Assembly (NCBI GenBank): GCA_022703375.1
Contig: JAKLDS010000004.1
Location: 1-64,000 of the forward strand
Reading direction: 5' to 3'
Length of the DNA: 64,000 nt
Source: Deltaproteobacteria bacterium
Lineage (GTDB): Bacteria; Desulfobacterota; Syntrophia; Syntrophales; Smithellaceae
This document shows, piece by piece, positions 29,282 through 45,215 of this stretch. Below the pieces are notes generated by a model. That model was given only the letters and a program-made list of their open reading frames with translations, did no database searches and was not told the DNA's origin. A program made the position numbers and the translations under genes. The number at the start of each line of letters is the position of its first letter. The stretch's first letter is position 1.

Positions 29282-31081
29282 TTAGATTTTAGCGTTATAA
29301 AATTCTCTGACCATTTCCAAAAATTCACTCAGGTGCTTGCGGCTGACAACAAAGATATGGCCGACATTTTTTTCTATCGTCCGGTTCAGCGCAGAGCTGG
29401 TGAATCCGATATTGCCGCAGCCAACCTTCCCCCATTTTTCGTTTGCCACACAGGAACCCGGAGGAGCGATAACATCTCTGGTGCCGCGATATTCAAAAAG
29501 GCAAACGCCGGCCTCGCTGAGAATATCCATATTAACCGGTTTGCCATCGAGCGCGGGATTGGACGAAGGCAGGCAATATGTGCCTTCATAAAGCTGGTTT
29601 TCCAGGAAAAATTTCTCAATCCATTGGCGATGAGCCAGCACAGGAAATTTTGTCCCGTGCGTCAGCCAGTAGAGAAACGGCGCCGCATCCCTGATGTGTT
29701 CGAGCTTTTCCGCACGTCCGTAAAAGCCGACCACGACATTATATTGAACGCCCGGCTGAATATCGTTCATTCCCGCTTCAATAACATGCTGTGGAATATT
29801 AACTGAGCCGAAAAATTCCCTCATCAGATCCGCGTCATAATTATTACGAATCAAGGCGCGCATCGGACCGTGCCCGCTTTCTTCATCATCAAATTTCATC
29901 GGCGAAGCCATTAAGACAACCTTCTTAATATCCATTGGCTTGCCCGCCGCCAGCAGTTCTTCCGCCCGTCTGGCCAGGTAAGGAAGAATAAGTGTTCCGG
30001 CCATGCAATAGGCCATGATATATATTTCCATTTTAGGATGGCGTTTCTTAACAATATCAAGATAAAACTCAGGAAGCGCTTTCCCATAGAAATCAAGTCC
30101 CAGTTCTGTTTCCTCCCAGCCGGGATCACCGTGGTCAACAAGATACATATGATAGCCGTCTTTGATAAGGCCTTCCACTACTGACTTGCCGGTTGCCAGA
30201 TCAAAAATATCCGGTTTGTTAATCAGCGGCGAGGCCATATAAATTACTTTGCCGTTTGGTTTAACTCCCTGCGGCGGCGGATAGTGACGCAATGTAACGC
30301 GATGATTCAATGATCCTTCCACAACTTCATAATGAGAACAACCTATTTTGCCGTAAGTTGTTTTTTCGGAATATTCTTTAATATCATAGGCGTTTTCCGC
30401 AAAGAGATTTTCCAGTCTGTTACGGTTTTCTTCCAGATATTCATTGAAGGAGGTGGCGAGTGTTCCTTCGGGAGCGTATTTGCCAAAGGGCAGCTTTTCA
30501 TTGGCAAAAGGTGTTTCCGTCACCACAACCAATATGCACTTGACCAGTTCCTTCATTGCCTTCAGACGAGTCAGACCAACATTATTATAACCAGCTTCCA
30601 GTTCGGCAAATTCCGCCATATAATTTTCCAGATACTCCTGGCCCTTTTTGGATGTGCATATTTTCAACGCTTTTTCTCTGTCAAATTTGCCGTTTTTAAT
30701 AAAAAATCCCGTCAGGGTATAGAGAAGGCGGGAATAATTTTTATAAATCCAACCGTTGGTATCGGCAATGATATCGGGATTCCTGCCGGAGCCGACAGCC
30801 ATCCGGGCGTGAGCCTTTATCGGTCCTGTAACATACCTGTCCATCAGACTGCTCTGCCAGGCAGCCGCCAGCGACCAGGGACCAAAAACATTAACATCTT
30901 TACTTATTTCCTTAAGCATCTTCTGGTATGCAAATAAACTGCGCACCTGTTGTCCGGCAAGCCTGCTTTTCCATGGTATTCCGACATTAAATCCCTGAAC
31001 ATTGTCTGCCGCCGATACACCGATTATTGACAAAAGATGATCCGGGGTAATTTTCTCCTGCGTCATATCTTCTTTATTCAT
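29282..31081 (-). CDS. Divergent PHA synthase-like alpha/beta-hydrolase (PhaC paralogue)
   Basis: This 599-residue protein is of class I PhaC length. It has a long N-terminal helical part (1 to about 250) and an alpha/beta-hydrolase domain. A Cys nucleophile at 359 (IMAYCMAGTL), Asp536 (RGTRDVIAP) and His575 (VGHIFVV) form the PhaC-type triad. The elbow reads A-Y-C-M-A-G, whereas PhaC enzymes usually have G-x-C-x-G-G, so both flanking glycines are Ala. It might be a synthase with altered specificity, a partner without synthase activity, or a depolymerising thioesterase. The ATG at 31081 has GAGG eight bases upstream and is preferred to the GTG at 31090. It is divergent from phaEC across a 330-bp AT-rich gap. 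Confidence 0.8.
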   Translation of the reverse strand: MNKEDMTQEKITPDHLLSIIGVSAADNVQGFNVGIPWKSRLAGQQVRSLFAYQKMLKEISKDVNVFGPWSLAAAWQSSLMDRYVTGPIKAHARMAVGSGRNPDIIADTNGWIYKNYSRLLYTLTGFFIKNGKFDREKALKICTSKKGQEYLENYMAEFAELEAGYNNVGLTRLKAMKELVKCILVVVTETPFANEKLPFGKYAPEGTLATSFNEYLEENRNRLENLFAENAYDIKEYSEKTTYGKIGCSHYEVVEGSLNHRVTLRHYPPPQGVKPNGKVIYMASPLINKPDIFDLATGKSVVEGLIKDGYHMYLVDHGDPGWEETELGLDFYGKALPEFYLDIVKKRHPKMEIYIMAYCMAGTLILPYLARRAEELLAAGKPMDIKKVVLMASPMKFDDEESGHGPMRALIRNNYDADLMREFFGSVNIPQHVIEAGMNDIQPGVQYNVVVGFYGRAEKLEHIRDAAPFLYWLTHGTKFPVLAHRQWIEKFFLENQLYEGTYCLPSSNPALDGKPVNMDILSEAGVCLFEYRGTRDVIAPPGSCVANEKWGKVGCGNIGFTSSALNRTIEKNVGHIFVVSRKHLSEFLEMVREFYNAKI

Positions 31082-31411
31082 TAACGTCACCTCGTAGGGA
31101 TTTTACTTGTATTATTCTACTCGTCTTTTAATTAAATCTCAATTTATATTTATTATTAAAACTTAATATTCAATTAGTATTTTTAAATACTTAAAAACAA
31201 ATTGACAAATAAAATATTCTATACTAAAAATTATCGCATTGAAAAAGTTTGGCTTCACCGGAAAAAAATATATCCCGGCTTAATTTAAGAAATCATTATT
31301 AATATGCAAATAGCAGATGCCATGCTCATGTCGCCCAATTTATCCTGTTATTCAAAATATGTTGAATGTTTATCATTTTACATAATTATCGTGACAATTA
31401 CGAGGTGAACA
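31082..31411. other. AT-rich divergent intergenic region between phaC-like and phaE
   Basis: No gene is seen. The first 130 bases are strongly AT-rich. Ribosome sites for both flanking genes lie at the edges (GAGGT on each side). A TTGACA at 31202-31207 has a TATACT only 12 bases later, which is too close for a normal promoter. The part nearer phaE holds several TGC/GCA triplets (ATGCAAATAGCAGATGCCATGC, split by spacing) that might be PhaR half-sites. Confidence 0.4.
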
Positions 31412-32437
31412 ATGACTGAAGAAAAAAGCGAAAACACTCAACCCCCATCAAGCTTTGCTCCCTGGCTGAAGTTAACCGGAGAGTTTTGGAATAATTTTCC
31501 GGCACTGCAAGCGTTTTCGGCTTCCGAAAATTCTGAACAAAAAAACGATGCTGCTTCCTTTTTGGCCGCATGGACTAAATTTGCATCGGGTTTTTGGAAC
31601 AATGACTGGATAAAAAACATGTCCGGTAATTCTGAAAATGCAACTCCGGATAATGCTGATCAAAATAAAAACACGGCTAACAATCGTTTTTTAGAGCAAT
31701 GGCAGGCTTCCCTTAATTTTATGAAATCATTTTCCAAAGCGTTAAGCGAACCGGAATCGGCCAATGCCACAATCAAGTCATTGAGCACATTGCCTGATGT
31801 TGTGTTGAAAATGCTTAAATCGGGCTGCGAAGCCGGCATTCAAGTTCAGCAGCAATTGATCGAGAAAGCAGCAAAAATCGGAAAAACCACCGAAGCTTAT
31901 AATTTTGAAAATCTTGATCAGGAAGTATTCAAGGCTTTCAGCGATATTTATGAAAAAGAATTAAGTCAATATCTTCATATCCCTCAGGTGGGTTTGACCA
32001 GGTTTTACCAGGAACGAATTGCTGATCTGATGGATAAGCATAATGTTCTGGAAACAACTTTAGCCGAATTTCTTTCGATACTGTATCTTCCCATGGAAAA
32101 AGCCAATAAGGTCACTCAGGAAAAGCTCGAAAGAATGGCGGAACAGGGAACGCTGCCCAAAGAAAGCAAAGAAAATTATTCTTTATGGGTCAAAGTGCTG
32201 GAAGGGCACTATATGACTCTCTTTAAATCCAGAGACTACACTGACGCCTTGCACAATACTCTCAGCAGGCTGGAAGATTTTGTCATGGCTAAAAACGAAA
32301 CGATGCGTGATTTTTTACAATTTTTCCCGGTACCGACAAACAAGGAAATGGACGATCTCTACAAAGAATTTCACTTATTAAAAAGGCGGGTTAAAGAGCT
32401 GGAGAAAAAATTAAATATACCCATGAATAAGGTTTAA
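31412..32437 (+). CDS. phaE: Class III PHA synthase subunit PhaE
   Basis: This 341-residue, mostly helical protein has no catalytic motif. The N-terminus is Trp/Phe-rich (SSFAPWLKLTGEFWNNF). The middle carries the PhaE-family block ending DLMDKHNVLETTLAEFL, and the C-terminal helix (KEFHLLKRRVKELEKKL) is a coiled coil. PhaE forms a complex with class III PhaC and is needed for its activity on short-chain hydroxyacyl-CoA. It lies 19 bases before phaC. GAGGTGAAC precedes the ATG. Family length is about 320-380 residues. Confidence 0.88.
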   Translation: MTEEKSENTQPPSSFAPWLKLTGEFWNNFPALQAFSASENSEQKNDAASFLAAWTKFASGFWNNDWIKNMSGNSENATPDNADQNKNTANNRFLEQWQASLNFMKSFSKALSEPESANATIKSLSTLPDVVLKMLKSGCEAGIQVQQQLIEKAAKIGKTTEAYNFENLDQEVFKAFSDIYEKELSQYLHIPQVGLTRFYQERIADLMDKHNVLETTLAEFLSILYLPMEKANKVTQEKLERMAEQGTLPKESKENYSLWVKVLEGHYMTLFKSRDYTDALHNTLSRLEDFVMAKNETMRDFLQFFPVPTNKEMDDLYKEFHLLKRRVKELEKKLNIPMNKV

Positions 32438-32456: not shown

Positions 32457-33731
32457 ATGACGCAAACCAAAATCCCGGTTGACCTCATCCTGGAAAGCCT
32501 GGCGCAAGATGCGGAAAAGGCCCAAAAGAGAGCGACTAAAGCGTCAGATGTTCTGCTGGGCGAACTTCATTCCGATCTCGCTACGACTCCTTACGAAGTT
32601 GTTTATCAGGAAGATCGGATTAAATTAAAACACTATTTCCGTTCGGAAACAGCAGATAAGCTTAAAACCCCTTTACTGACAGTTTATGCGTTGATTAATC
32701 GTGAAACCATGCTCGATTTGCAGCCGGGAAGAAGCGTCGTGCAGAATTTTCTCAACGACGGCATTGATCTTTATATGATTGACTGGGGTTATCCCACCCG
32801 CAAGGACAGCATGCTGACCATTGACGATCATGTCAATGGTTATATGAACAATGTAGTTGACTTTATCCGGGAAAAACATGGCATTCCTAAAATCAATCTT
32901 ATGGGAATTTGCATGGGAGGCAGTTTCAGCGTTATGTACAGCGCGCTGCATCCGGAAAAAATTAAAAATCTGGTTACTACCGTTACTCCCTCAAGCTTTG
33001 ATAATGATAAGGGCCTTTTGCATATCTGGATGAAAGATCTCGATGTTGATAAGATGATCCGGGCCTTCGGCAATATACCCGGTGATTTGATGAACCTGGG
33101 ATTCCTGCTGCTTAATCCGGCGCGTCTCATGATTGACAAGTATGTCGGCTTCATGGAAAACATTGACAATAAGGATTTCGTGGAAAATTTCATTCGCATG
33201 GAAAGATGGATTTTTGATAGTCCTGATGTACCGGGAGAAACTTTCCGTCAATTTGTCGAGGATTGCTATAAGAAAAATCTCCTCATTCAGAACAAAATGT
33301 ATTTAGGCAATAAAAGAGTTGATTTAAAAAACCTTACCATGCCCCTTCTGAATTTCTACGGAAAATTCGATCATCTCGTTCCGCCGGAAGCTTGTGAACA
33401 ATTAACCAAAGCGGTGGGCAGCAAAGATGTTGAGGATGTTTGTCTGGAAACTGGTCATATCGGCATTTACGTCAGTTCCAAATATCAACGGGAGTTCGCT
33501 CCGAAAATAGCCAAATGGCTGAAGGCCAGAGATGAAGAAGATGTGCCGCAGGTAAAAGCCAGAGACGAACAAAAGCCCAAGCTGCCGGCAGCCAGGGGCA
33601 GGAAACAGGCAGCGGCCGGTTCACCGAAAACAAAAGCTGCCAGGTCCGCAACCAGAACTGCCAAACCAAAATCCCCGGCCCCGGCGAAGGGTAAATCGGC
33701 GTTAATGCAAAAAATTGCTGAAGCAATCTAA
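32457..33731 (+). CDS. phaC: Class III PHA synthase catalytic subunit PhaC with basic C-terminal tail
   Basis: The catalytic part is residues 1 to about 358, a normal class III length. It has the elbow GICMGG with Cys152, Asp305 (YGKFDHLVPP) and His334 (ETGHIGIYV), the triad that polymerises (R)-3-hydroxyacyl-CoA. Residues about 359-424 are an extra low-complexity tail rich in Lys, Arg, Ala and Pro (AARGRKQAAAG, KTKAARSATRTAKPKSP, APAKGKS), like histone H1 or PhaF/PhaM-type DNA-binding tails. Standard class III PhaC lacks this tail. AAGGAGG lies upstream. It is co-transcribed with phaE and followed by the GAF gene. Confidence 0.93.
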   Translation: MTQTKIPVDLILESLAQDAEKAQKRATKASDVLLGELHSDLATTPYEVVYQEDRIKLKHYFRSETADKLKTPLLTVYALINRETMLDLQPGRSVVQNFLNDGIDLYMIDWGYPTRKDSMLTIDDHVNGYMNNVVDFIREKHGIPKINLMGICMGGSFSVMYSALHPEKIKNLVTTVTPSSFDNDKGLLHIWMKDLDVDKMIRAFGNIPGDLMNLGFLLLNPARLMIDKYVGFMENIDNKDFVENFIRMERWIFDSPDVPGETFRQFVEDCYKKNLLIQNKMYLGNKRVDLKNLTMPLLNFYGKFDHLVPPEACEQLTKAVGSKDVEDVCLETGHIGIYVSSKYQREFAPKIAKWLKARDEEDVPQVKARDEQKPKLPAARGRKQAAAGSPKTKAARSATRTAKPKSPAPAKGKSALMQKIAEAI

Positions 33732-33749: not shown

Positions 33750-34805
33750 ATGACCACACAAAAAGATTATTACCAAAGTTTAAGCAAACTAAGTCGTGAA
33801 TTCGGCACCACCAAAGATCAGGATAAGCTGCTCAATTTGATTGTTACAACGGCAAAAAACACGATGAAAGCAAAGGCAGCCGCTCTTTTCATTATGGATG
33901 AAGAATCTGATTCCAAGGAGAAAAATGCAGCGGTGGCGCAAGTCGGGCTTTCCGATAAATACATCCATGCGGGCGTCGGCCATGCCGGAAAAATTACCCC
34001 CCAACTTCTCAAAGACGGCTATATTTATATCCGTGATGCCACGACCGATCCGCGTTTAATAAATCATGAAGCCAAAAAAGCGGAAGGCATCGGCTCAGTG
34101 CTGACAGTCCCTGTAATGGTGAAAGGTAAAATGCTGGGGATACTTACCCTGTACACAAGCGAAATGCGTAATTTCAGCAAAGATGAAATTGAATTCCTTT
34201 CTATTCTTGCCGAACAGGGAGGCATATCCCTGGAAAATGCCAGTTTAATCAATAAGCTGCGGGAAAACGCTCAGATTTTCCTTGATTTGGCTGCGAATAT
34301 ATCTTCCAGCCTGAACGTTAAAACAATTTTGCAGAAACTGACAGAGGATGTCGCCAAGACTCTGGATATAAAGGCCGCTTCCGTAAGATTGCTTGATGAA
34401 AACAAACAGACATTAAAGCTGGTTGCCAGCTATGGATTAAGTAATAAATATCTGAACAAAGGACCGGTTTCAGCTGAAAAAAGCATAGCCATGGCATTAA
34501 AGGGGAAACCGGTAGTTGTTAATAATGCCTGCGATGATGAGGGAGTGCAATACAAAAAAGAAAAAAAGGAAGAAGGTATCGTATCCATTTTATGTGTTCC
34601 GATTAAATCACAGAATGATGTAATTGGAGTATTACGTCTTTACAGCGACCGGGAAAGAGCCTTCACCGATGATGAAATTATTTTAGTAACAGCCTTAGCT
34701 TATCAGGGCGGTCTGGCAATTCAAAACGCCAGTATGTACCTGATGATTCAGAATGACATGAAAGATTTGCAGGCAAATATTTGGAGCCATAAATCCTGGT
34801 TCTGA
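33750..34805 (+). CDS. Tandem GAF-domain protein
   Basis: This 351-residue soluble protein is made of two GAF domains (about 20-170 and 185-340) with no output domain such as a kinase, GGDEF or HTH. Each half has the GAF pattern of an AALFIMDEE/ASVRLLDE strand, a middle GYIYIRDATTDPR/GKPVVVNNACDDEG segment and a SVLTVPVMVKGKMLGILTLY / SILCVPIKSQNDVIGVLRLY core. Such modules bind small ligands or sense redox state. It sits between phaC and phaJ with gaps of 18 and 51 bases, so it is probably co-expressed with PHA enzymes. Its partner is unknown. Confidence 0.85.
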   Translation: MTTQKDYYQSLSKLSREFGTTKDQDKLLNLIVTTAKNTMKAKAAALFIMDEESDSKEKNAAVAQVGLSDKYIHAGVGHAGKITPQLLKDGYIYIRDATTDPRLINHEAKKAEGIGSVLTVPVMVKGKMLGILTLYTSEMRNFSKDEIEFLSILAEQGGISLENASLINKLRENAQIFLDLAANISSSLNVKTILQKLTEDVAKTLDIKAASVRLLDENKQTLKLVASYGLSNKYLNKGPVSAEKSIAMALKGKPVVVNNACDDEGVQYKKEKKEEGIVSILCVPIKSQNDVIGVLRLYSDRERAFTDDEIILVTALAYQGGLAIQNASMYLMIQNDMKDLQANIWSHKSWF

Positions 34806-35418: not shown

Positions 35419-35904
35419 TTATTTTTTAACCAGCTCTTTTTTATAATATTTCCCCATTTGTTTCATCAAATCCTGAAACTGCTGAGTCTGATCTTTAACA
35501 ATCTCTGTCAAATTATTAACAACTTCCTGCTGTTCAAAGATATCCTTTTCCGGTTGGTTCCTTCTGTTTTTAATAATATTTTCCTGCGCTTTTACTTTTT
35601 CCTTTAATAATTCGTTTTCCTTCAACAATTCATCATAATCTTCTTTGGCAACAACATCGAACAGAGAAAGGGAAGCCTTAAAGACTTCTTTATAGGCATC
35701 AGTTGCTTTTCTGGCTATTTCTAATATTTCCGGAGTTATCTCTTCAGTTTTTTGTGTTTCCGGCTGATTTAACAGCGAACTAAATAATTTATTTTTACCG
35801 AAACTATCAATGCTGAACCACTTATTCCAGTCTTCCATTTGCTGTTGACTGCGGGCAGCGTTCAGAAAAATCTGACCCCAGAATTCCAATAAGTTTTTAT
35901 CCAT
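35419..35904 (-). CDS. Coiled-coil protein of the PHA locus, function unknown
   Basis: This 161-residue helical protein has an N-terminal aromatic-rich part (LLEFWGQIFLNAARSQQQMEDWNKWF), a middle helix and a C-terminal coiled coil (about 90-155: YDELLKENELLKEKVKAQEN, then EVVNNLTEIVKDQTQQFQDL). The look recalls PhaE or PhaR-type synthase partners and phasins, but I do not recognise a family. A GGGGGG-rich ribosome site precedes the ATG. Its location between phaJ and the phasin-like genes suggests a granule-associated role. This is inference only. Confidence 0.65.
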   Translation of the reverse strand: MDKNLLEFWGQIFLNAARSQQQMEDWNKWFSIDSFGKNKLFSSLLNQPETQKTEEITPEILEIARKATDAYKEVFKASLSLFDVVAKEDYDELLKENELLKEKVKAQENIIKNRRNQPEKDIFEQQEVVNNLTEIVKDQTQQFQDLMKQMGKYYKKELVKK

Positions 35905-36086
35905 TTCATTCCCCCCTGAAAATAATATTTATCAAAAATTATATCAATAAATCCAGCAGAAAGGCAACAAAATCAGTTCGCTGCCCGGAAATTTCAGAGA
36001 TTTAGAGTTTGTGAAGCGTCTGTTATCCCGCCATAATTTGTTGAATACCGGATATGCTTTATTATTTATACGGAAAATGATATTTA

Positions 36087-36120
36087 TCTGCCCGGCTACA
36101 ATACATGAGAGCCGGGCAGA
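36087..36120 (-). terminator. Strong hairpin downstream of the phasin-like genes
   Basis: TCTGCCCGGCT (36087-36097) pairs perfectly with AGCCGGGCAGA (36110-36120). On minus it follows the last phasin-like stop by 27 bases but has only a mixed A/T tail. On plus it is followed by five T residues. It may act as a terminator or as an mRNA-stabilising stem before the coiled-coil gene. Confidence 0.55.
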
Positions 36121-36146
36121 TTTTTGACTAAATGCCGAAACAATAA

Positions 36147-36407
36147 TTATTTAATAGAAAAAACTGATTCAACCTTCTTGAAACTTTCATCTGCCGCCGT
36201 CTTTAAATCAGTGCGACCCTTTTTGTAGGTTTTGATCCAGTCGTTAACGGCCTTCTTACCCTCCTCCGGGATAAGCGCATTCTGTGCCAGAAAAGCACTT
36301 ACTACCTTCTCGGCCTGATCCTGTAACACCACCATAGCCTCGAATGAGTTGTCAAATGCCGTCTTGTTAAAATCAATCATCTGCTTTGCAATTTGTTTTG
36401 GTTCCAT
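36147..36407 (-). CDS. Phasin-like protein, third tandem copy (86 aa)
   Basis: This 86-residue helical protein shares one template with the two genes upstream: xPKQIAKQMIDFNKTAFDNSF, then an LQDQAEKVV helix, then LIPEEGKKAVNDWIKTYKKGR and a DLKTAADESFKKVE end. It stops after the shared core and lacks the tails of the other two copies. Phasins coat PHA granules through amphipathic helices, and the locus supports this reading, although similarity to characterised phasins is weak. AGGAGGAAAATGAA precedes the ATG, and the gap to the second copy is 27 bases. Confidence 0.75.
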   Translation of the reverse strand: MEPKQIAKQMIDFNKTAFDNSFEAMVVLQDQAEKVVSAFLAQNALIPEEGKKAVNDWIKTYKKGRTDLKTAADESFKKVESVFSIK

Positions 36408-36434
36408 TTCATTTTCCTCCTGATAAGTTAATTG

Positions 36435-36941
36435 TTATTTTTTAAGTTTTTTTCCCATTTTACCCGGAATATCGGCTGCACTGAGACCTTTTTTTCTCTT
36501 AGTTGCCTTATCCTTGTTGACAAATACTTCTTTTTCACTTTCTAAGAGAGACGCTCCGGCCATACTCTTAATAGACTTATCCACGACAGCGACGGAGACA
36601 TTTCTGATTTTACGGGCAGCTTCACTGAATTGATTGTCAGTTTTTTCGATGATGTTATAAATAGAATATTCCATATTTTCAGCGCTCTTAATAAAATAAT
36701 CCTCCACATTGTGAAAATTATTATCAACTGCCGCCTTATAATCTTCTATCCCCTTTTTATAGGTTGCGAACCAGTCAGTTAAAGCTTTCTTGCCATCTTC
36801 GGGAAAGAATGTTGCCTTCTCTACAAACAATTGAACCATTCTTTCGGCATGACTCTCCCAAAGATTTATGGCATCAAATGAACTATCAAACGCTGCTTTG
36901 TTGAAATCTATTACTTGCCTGGCAATCGTTTTCGGATGCAT
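36435..36941 (-). CDS. Phasin-like protein, second tandem copy (168 aa)
   Basis: This 168-residue protein repeats the core of its neighbours in residues 1 to about 85 (PKTIARQVIDFNKAAFDSSF, FFPEDGKKALTDWFATYKKG, AAVDNNFHNVEDYF). It then has a second helical region and a basic C-terminus (KKGLSAADIPGKMGKKLKK). The ATG at 36941 with GGAGG eight bases upstream is preferred to the ATG at 36956, which overlaps the preceding stop. The basic tail could bind the polymer surface, RNA or DNA. This is inference. Confidence 0.78.
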   Translation of the reverse strand: MHPKTIARQVIDFNKAAFDSSFDAINLWESHAERMVQLFVEKATFFPEDGKKALTDWFATYKKGIEDYKAAVDNNFHNVEDYFIKSAENMEYSIYNIIEKTDNQFSEAARKIRNVSVAVVDKSIKSMAGASLLESEKEVFVNKDKATKRKKGLSAADIPGKMGKKLKK

Positions 36942-36955
36942 CGTTATCTCCTCCA

Positions 36956-37264
36956 TTATTTTGCTTTGGCTGCTTTTTTCTGGGGTGTCGCTTTAGTTGT
37001 TTCAGCTTCGGCATTGAAATACGCTTCAACCTTTTTATAATTCTTATCCACTGCTGATTTAAACTCGTTGCGCCCTTTCGCATACATCGCTACCCATTCT
37101 TCGATGAGTTTCTTGCCTTCTGCCGGCAGCCATGATGCCTGCTGCAAATAGGTTTGCACCATTTTTCCCGTCTGTTCCTGTAAAATCCCCAGAGAGTTAA
37201 AAGTGTTATCAAACGTTGACTTGTGAAACTCGATAATCTGCCTGGCAATTTTTTTGTTTTCCAT
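36956..37264 (-). CDS. Phasin-like protein, first tandem copy (102 aa)
   Basis: This 102-residue helical protein carries the shared core (KKIARQIIEFHKSTFDNTF, SWLPAEGKKLIEEWVAMYAKGR, SAVDKNYKKVEAYF) followed by a short Ala/Lys/Thr-rich tail (TKATPQKKAAKAK) like that of PHA-granule proteins. GGAGGAGGT precedes the ATG. It lies directly behind a near-perfect promoter and opposite phaR, which usually represses phasin genes. It is the first gene of a three-copy array. Confidence 0.8.
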   Translation of the reverse strand: MENKKIARQIIEFHKSTFDNTFNSLGILQEQTGKMVQTYLQQASWLPAEGKKLIEEWVAMYAKGRNEFKSAVDKNYKKVEAYFNAEAETTKATPQKKAAKAK

Positions 37265-44614: not shown

Positions 44615-44895
44615 TGATCTTCCCCCGTAAAAACGGACAGCTGGTTAAGAGACACCTCCGGCATTTTCAAAAGCCAGAGGAATTCTGTATTTTAACGCAG
44701 AATGTCGGCGCTGACGATTATAAAAGAGTTCAATGTAATCAAAAAGGCTGGCTCTCGCTTCTGATCGTGTCTTGTAATCTTCAAAACCAACCCATTCAAT
44801 CTTCAGCGAATGAAAGAAACTTTCCATTGCAGCGTTATCCCAACAATTGCTTTTCCGACTCATGCTGCAGGTGATGCCAAAATTGCTCAATACCC
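44615..44895 (-). pseudogene. IS3-family transposase remnant (orfB C-terminus plus one terminal repeat)
   Basis: The minus-strand frame ends with SMSRKSNCWDNAAMESFFHSLK and YNRQRRHSALKYRIPLAFE. These are the final DDE-domain blocks of IS3-type transposases, with the third catalytic Glu in AMESFF. Homology begins at about GVLSNFGI (near 44893). The earlier part of the frame, to 45109, does not look like transposase, so the first two Asp residues and orfA are missing. TGATCTTCCCCC at 44615-44626 resembles an IS3-family terminal inverted repeat. The other end was not found. The element is dead. Confidence 0.8.
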
Positions 44896-45064
44896 CTTGT
44901 CGTCGTCCTTGTGTTTTGATTTTTAAATGATAAGAAAATAGCTTACGGTTGGCAGGCGCTGTTCGTATTGCGCTACAATCTGGGCTTTGACAATTTCCTA
45001 ACAGGCTGTTATGGATAAAGCAAAGGATTGAGAGCTTTGTATGACTATTTAAAACTAACAATTT

Positions 45065-45215
45065 CGTCATTCCGTGCAAACGAAGAGCGACTTTGAGCCT
45101 ACCCTGCATCTGACACGGGGAAATCCAGTACTATCAATGGGCTTCTGGATACCCCCGGCATTCACCGGGCTTTGGGCTGGAGTAAGACCCGGCTCCTGCC
45201 GGGCCAGGTAAGACG
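45065..45215. repeat. Dispersed-repeat-type sequence upstream of der
   Basis: The stretch has the phrases CGTCATTCCGTGC and GGAAATCCAGTACTA near one end and GGGCTTCTGGATACCCCC with a CCCGGCtcctGCCGGG hairpin near the other. Sequences of the form GTCATTCC...GGAATCCAG are frequent short repeats in proteobacterial genomes (from memory). No gene is seen between about 44900 and 45344 besides decayed insertion-sequence material. Confidence 0.45.

Follow-up and report, generated by a model that had tools for sequence, protein, structure and literature searches.

The window, by which we mean the whole stretch of 64,000 nucleotides analysed here, carries a phaC gene, and its product was assigned to the class III PHA synthases. 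This protein scored 433.3 bits against TIGR01836, the class III PhaC model, over residues 10-358, above the curated cut-off of 365.3, and its gene adjoins phaE (Table 1). The PhaE protein scored 52.4 bits against TIGR01834, under the cut-off of 154.95 for that model. PHA synthases, e.g. 9knj, 5hz2 and 5t6o, were the closest solved structures to the window PhaC, and the match was confined to residues 14-339. Downstream of phaC are genes for a GAF-domain protein and a MaoC-type hydratase, the opposite-strand genes of phasin-like proteins (35419-37264) and a PhaR homologue; the names phasin-like and PhaR are provisional and based in part on position. The GAF-domain gene followed phaC in most of the neighbourhoods read, and its product has a conserved C-terminal end, WSHKxWF. 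The phasin-like protein listed in Table 1 is a possible PhaF-like tether. Further along, an ORF on the minus strand (44645-45109) resembles a transposase fragment, with an integrase-core-like end as judged by eye.

Table 1. Features of the phaC locus, with positions in the window
Feature	Position	Strand	Remarks
602-aa PhaC-like protein	29282-31090	-	TIGR01836 95.9 bits, partial
PhaE subunit gene, upstream of phaC	31412..32437	+	PF09712 57.4 bits, cut-off 25.7
PhaC ORF	32457-33731	+	424 aa, class III PHA synthase
PhaC catalytic core, residues 1-359	32457..33533	+	TIGR01836; AF2 pLDDT mostly >85
Basic Lys/Ala/Pro-rich linker, residues 360-412	33534..33692	+	hypervariable; predicted disordered
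Conserved C-terminal tip KSALMQKIAEAI, residues 413-424	33693..33728	+	amphipathic helix candidate
GAF-domain protein gene, directly 3' of phaC	33750..34805	+	GAF_2 124.6 bits; neighbourhood
Phasin-like protein	36435-36956	-	basic C-terminal tail; net charge rank 2 of 62 window ORFs

PhaC runs on for about 65 residues beyond its catalytic core, which ends near residue 359. The net charge of this tail is about +10 and its pI about 10.6. When the 62 non-overlapping window ORFs of at least 80 aa were ranked by their C-terminal 60 residues, PhaC had the highest net charge (+13) and the lowest hydrophobic fraction (0.10). With TIGR01836 ending at residue 358, these values bear out the earlier note, which had described a PhaC with a basic extension of about 65 residues. 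The tail is bipartite: a hypervariable basic linker of about 53 aa is followed, exactly at the C-terminus, by a conserved tip, KSALMQKIAEAI. The linker is rich in Lys, Ala and Pro; the last 12 residues, which form this tip, are not of the low complexity ascribed to the tail as a whole. AAKP-like motifs had also been claimed; a literal AAKP does not occur in the window tail and was present once in 5 of the 106 PhaC sequences compared.

A frameshift or misassembly as the origin of the tail was ruled out, since third-position GC is alike in tail (0.51) and core (0.48) and the same in-frame end recurs behind differing linkers in 17 genomes of the family (16 phaC sequences and G003). The phaC gene of G003 is split between contigs, with the tip match at a contig edge (G003:C182); L149, a record with the same kind of contig edge, reads tail, tip, stop and GAF gene. 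Such an artefact, or absence of the tail from all relatives together with a failure to bind nucleic acid, had been named in advance as grounds for dropping the reading of the tail; the artefact was ruled out, and most relatives have a tail.

Class III PhaC was detected at E<=1e-60 in 71 of the 155 genomes of the order. From this set 69 PhaC sequences were drawn, the tailless paralogues C52 and C2 of G000 not being counted, and 64 of them had a tail of at least 20 residues past the core. Net charge was +3 or more in 56 of these tails and 0 or below in 3. A sample of the phylum gave a PhaC match at E<=1e-80 in 46 of 395 genomes; 18 of the 37 additional sequences carried a tail of 20 aa or longer, and in 15 of these the net charge was +3 or more. 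Tail composition was compared without the incomplete sequences L027 and L030. Whether such tails occur in other class III PhaC proteins, a check proposed at the outset, is thus answered in the affirmative by the counts for order and phylum. The short canonical enzymes of the 355-aa kind (families f42, f106, f114 and f35) had no tail. Tails are the rule in the lineage of the window PhaC and the canonical 355-aa enzymes are without them. The tail is just 2 residues long in G033 and G068, the PhaC of G033 being 80% identical to the window protein. Class III PhaC of family f52 (L116, L122, L123 and L125) has a different, alignable C-terminal stretch, e.g. GKKELFFDNLQGKQGIRDHP.

In genera g1, g4 and g5 of family f1 (Smithellaceae, Syntrophaceae), PhaC ends in [KR]-x-x-L-[IM]-x-[KR]-I-x-[EQ]-A-I, and related forms of the tip were found in families f17 and f10, e.g. 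KPSLIQVISETL (in G050, RPSLIQVISETL) and KPSLTQVIQETI. The f1 form is called capA (16 sequences) and the f17/f10 forms capB (14 sequences). Tips end in EAI, ETL or ETI behind a disordered linker, and 29 of the 30 tipped sequences have the tip at the very C-terminus, G145 being one residue longer. The tip is under purifying selection. For the 16 capA phaC genes, taken as pooled pairs uncorrected for kinship, pN/pS was 0.21 in the last 10 tip codons, and two core stretches of the same genes gave 0.11 and 0.15. Two 12-codon linker stretches gave 0.71 beside the tip and 0.78 beside the core, these being partly misaligned because they were compared without gaps. Conservation extends to the polar positions of the tip (K, Q/D/E, E), which suggests specific docking and not a greasy anchor.

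The tip appeared to be confined to PhaC. A joint tip profile, which is incomplete in that it missed the tipped genomes G004 and G021, gave 30 matches (E<=0.05) in 28 of the 155 genomes of the order; 29 were at the ends of phaC frames, one at the G003 contig edge and none in other proteins. The capA profile gave 6 strong matches among 30 relatives, all of them phaC ends (one being the G003 edge), and the next-best match had an E of 0.11 and lay in an 851-aa frame. A DNA pattern of tip plus stop codon had 17 matches in the genomes of 84,980 species. Twelve were full-length phaC genes, and one was a phaC tail truncated at a contig edge, with the GAF gene behind it; the remaining four, from unrelated organisms, were stop-to-stop frames 15-19 aa long and were taken as chance. 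The tip as a motif common to other proteins was rejected at the sensitivity of these profile and genome scans.

AF2 predictions were made separately for one capA and one capB PhaC, from alignments that have most rows in common. The window PhaC had an ordered core, pLDDT below 50 at residues 366-413 and a terminal helix at 413-423 with pLDDT of about 52-53; the capB PhaC, from f10, was disordered at 361-412 and had a helix at 417-424 (pLDDT 58-63). On these models the linker is probably disordered. Docking of the tip onto the core of PhaC itself had no support in either model, tip pLDDT being just 52-63. The hydrophobic moment of ten tips was 0.47-0.68. Amphipathicity was weakly above that of shuffled sequences for several of them; 3.7% of shuffles were as high as the window tip, and fewer than 4% were as high for five of the ten.

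A tree of 105 sequences was built from the core only, by a quick method with SH-aLRT support only and without L138, which was too short. All 30 tipped sequences fell in a single 47-row clade (SH-aLRT 93), and three tip states required 6 changes on the tree, compared to a mean of 28.4 after shuffling. It is simplest to assume that the tip arose once and was later lost; taken by itself, the tree does not distinguish gain from loss. The clade has 17 tipless members (11 from g2, 1 from g6, 2 from f4, 2 from f8/f6 and 1 from f5), and the DNA behind phaC was read for all of them. In G005 (g6) a tip remnant, LPMQKIADAI, stands in frame behind stop codons; a weaker remnant, identified by eye, is a tip-like stretch that runs on in another frame in G001 (g2). 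No remnant was detected behind phaC in the other 15. As the tip was lost in several lineages, it is dispensable in those lineages.

The 602-aa PhaC-like protein of the window has orthologues in g2 (L181-L185, L190, L196, L089, L090 and L094) with a tail of their own, about 34 residues long and ending in NVVDIKKLQxxK. This tail was present in 10 of 10 complete g2 copies and in none of the 12 non-g2 copies of the family (window, G005, G008, G003, G013, G017, G014, G030, G032, G074, G021 and G034; the G032 copy is partial with its end intact). A search of 17 g2 genomes found the NVVDIKKLQxxK tip in 11, always on the 602-aa protein and 10 times at E<1e-9; in G070 the match (1.2e-4) was in a 334-aa frame, the copy being interrupted by an unread base. 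Other matches had E of about 0.04 or more. Within the family this tip is reciprocal with the PhaC tip, but the pattern amounts to a single evolutionary event, and in G005 (g6) the PhaC tip disappeared with no gain of the NVVDIKKLQxxK tip. The synthase could be organised like SSB or FtsZ, its PhaC tip serving as a code by which a dedicated granule partner recruits it; in g2, where PhaC has no tip, this job would have passed to the 602-aa neighbour with its own linker and different tip. We regard this as unlikely.

The anatomy described above, in which the tip stays conserved although the linker before it can vary freely, is consistent with a class III PHA synthase that consists of a core, a flexible linker and a docking tip. 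We would give this explanation about an even chance. With its free carboxyl end in place, the tip would fold as a short amphipathic helix and fit into a groove on a partner, which at the nascent granule might be PhaE, a phasin or another molecule of the synthase. The basic linker of 50-65 residues would act as a spacer and may also keep the enzyme close to acidic granule proteins or to polyanions, its charge perhaps adding contacts with these proteins, DNA or polyphosphate. Tether and tip together could concentrate synthases or hold the granule while leaving the catalytic domain unconstrained, in the manner of the C-terminal tips of SSB and FtsZ behind their disordered linkers. The linker has a net charge of -1 in G153 and +1 in G043, both of which are tipped; the tip can thus be kept on a linker that is not basic. 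Gene neighbourhood gave no lead to the partner, being the same with and without the tip; the GAF-domain gene, for example, is next to phaC in tipped and tipless relatives alike. Alignment columns of PhaE and the GAF-domain protein were compared with tip loss and none tracked it convincingly, the 8 and 10 candidate columns each diverging in 2-3 of 5 lineages. The low confidence of the predicted helix (pLDDT 52-63), the losses of the tip and the weak amphipathicity of several tips count against a docking tip.

The earlier note had likened the tail to histone H1, PhaF and PhaM and proposed that it tethers nascent granules to the nucleoid. The tail does share with these proteins predicted disorder, strong basicity and a Lys/Ala/Pro-rich composition, but AAKP is lacking and six tails had no match to histone, HC2 or H1-like models when compared with Pfam and NCBIfam at E up to 10. 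It also follows the PhaC catalytic core and not a phasin-like granule-binding N-terminal domain of the PhaM/PhaF type. The resemblance is one of composition only. Such a composition fits DNA binding, and the tether interpretation is partly supported in that a long, disordered, basic tail sits on the synthase and recurs in relatives. If the linker bound DNA non-specifically and spread granules along the nucleoid, with the tip secondary, the high frequency of tails with net +3 or more (56 of 64) and the disorder predicted by AF2 could be understood; the DNA-binding domain of PhaF is likewise natively unfolded and Lys-rich (PMC3574117), and a DNA-tethering tail has been proposed for Cobetia PhaC2 (PMC8686332). 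We nevertheless consider this explanation somewhat unlikely. Purifying selection acts on the terminal tip and not on the basic linker, which argues against tethering as the main role, as do the 2-residue tails of G033 and G068. Linker residues are nearly free to change, although binding based on composition would permit that, and the tip is kept in G153 and G043 on linkers with almost no net charge. Furthermore, the phasin-like neighbour also ends in a basic tail and could fill this role.

Other explanations were centred on the tip or on the enzyme. A phasin-like amphipathic helix that inserts in the PHA granule surface or a membrane, helped by flanking lysines, would agree with the hydrophobic moments of the ten tips and the AF2 helix; such an anchor would need neither conserved polar positions nor a fixed distance to the C-terminus, several tips do not clearly exceed their shuffles, and we consider it quite improbable. 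We see little likelihood that the tail is required for synthase activity or PhaE assembly as in haloarchaeal class III PhaC. Haloferax PhaC is reported to depend on its longer C-terminus for activity (PMC2939530), but the canonical 355-aa enzymes need no tail, and G033 and G068 with 2 tail residues and all 11 g2 sequences with no tip keep their genes in place. Very doubtful in our view is a degradation tag, in which the unstructured tail and a terminal -AI signal would let ClpXP or Lon remove free synthase. Its appeal lies in tips that end in EAI, ETL or ETI behind a disordered linker and in the MuA end RRKKAI, listed as a ClpX signal (PMC8138137). The window tip ends in AI without an adjacent basic cluster and relatives have ETL or ETI. 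Ends such as ETL, ETI and DTI are unlike RRKKAI or the end of the ssrA tag, and conservation extends 9-12 residues back, beyond the six-residue MuA signal.

The docking tip on a flexible tether is the explanation we favour, and the analysis suggests that a cellular partner holds the synthase on this tether, as opposed to mere adhesion of the enzyme to DNA. Few model species have shown how PHA granules form and are positioned, and the class III synthases of uncultured syntrophs have been little studied. The selected tip of 12 residues offers a directly testable handle and might also be used as a natural tag with which proteins are brought to PHA granules. Our search of the literature on class III PhaC tails, with subscription journals mostly outside its coverage, found nothing on the tip. 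A selected, PhaC-specific tip seems new, while a basic tail on PhaC and the tether idea have already been published for Cobetia.

Folded core, disordered linker and short conserved terminal tip are also the parts of E. coli SSB and of FtsZ. PhaC resembles them in its fast-changing disordered linker and constrained tip at the exact C-terminus, a likeness of analogy and not of homology. The C-terminal peptide of FtsZ is a short conserved tip behind a disordered linker. E. coli SSB has a 9-residue tip behind a 56-residue disordered linker (PMC7145534). The SSB tip is acidic, whereas that of PhaC is amphipathic with flanking lysines, and the proteins are unrelated.

Among granule proteins, PhaM, PhaF and PhaH are described as tethers that are separate proteins (PMC13052382). 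PhaF of Pseudomonas and PhaM of Cupriavidus have a basic, disordered or histone-like C-terminal region and a granule-binding N-terminus (PMC13052382, PMC3574117), whereas in the window it is the synthase that bears the tail, with a conserved tip at its end. The class III PhaC of Haloferax mediterranei (54.8 kDa) is described as having a C-terminus longer than that of its bacterial counterparts, an extension reported to be indispensable for activity (PMC2939530); the tail of the window PhaC is absent in some near relatives. PhaC2 of Cobetia and Halomonas is, like the window PhaC, a synthase with a basic, disordered C-terminal tail, and the H1-like tail of the Cobetia enzyme has been proposed as a granule-DNA anchor (PMC8686332). 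PhaC2 is a class I enzyme with an extension of more than 300 aa, HC2-like hits, AAKP motifs and a proposed role in nucleoid anchoring, and a conserved C-terminal tip is not mentioned in the text consulted (PMC8686332). The window PhaC is of class III, with a tail of about 65 aa that has no histone-family match and ends in a conserved tip.
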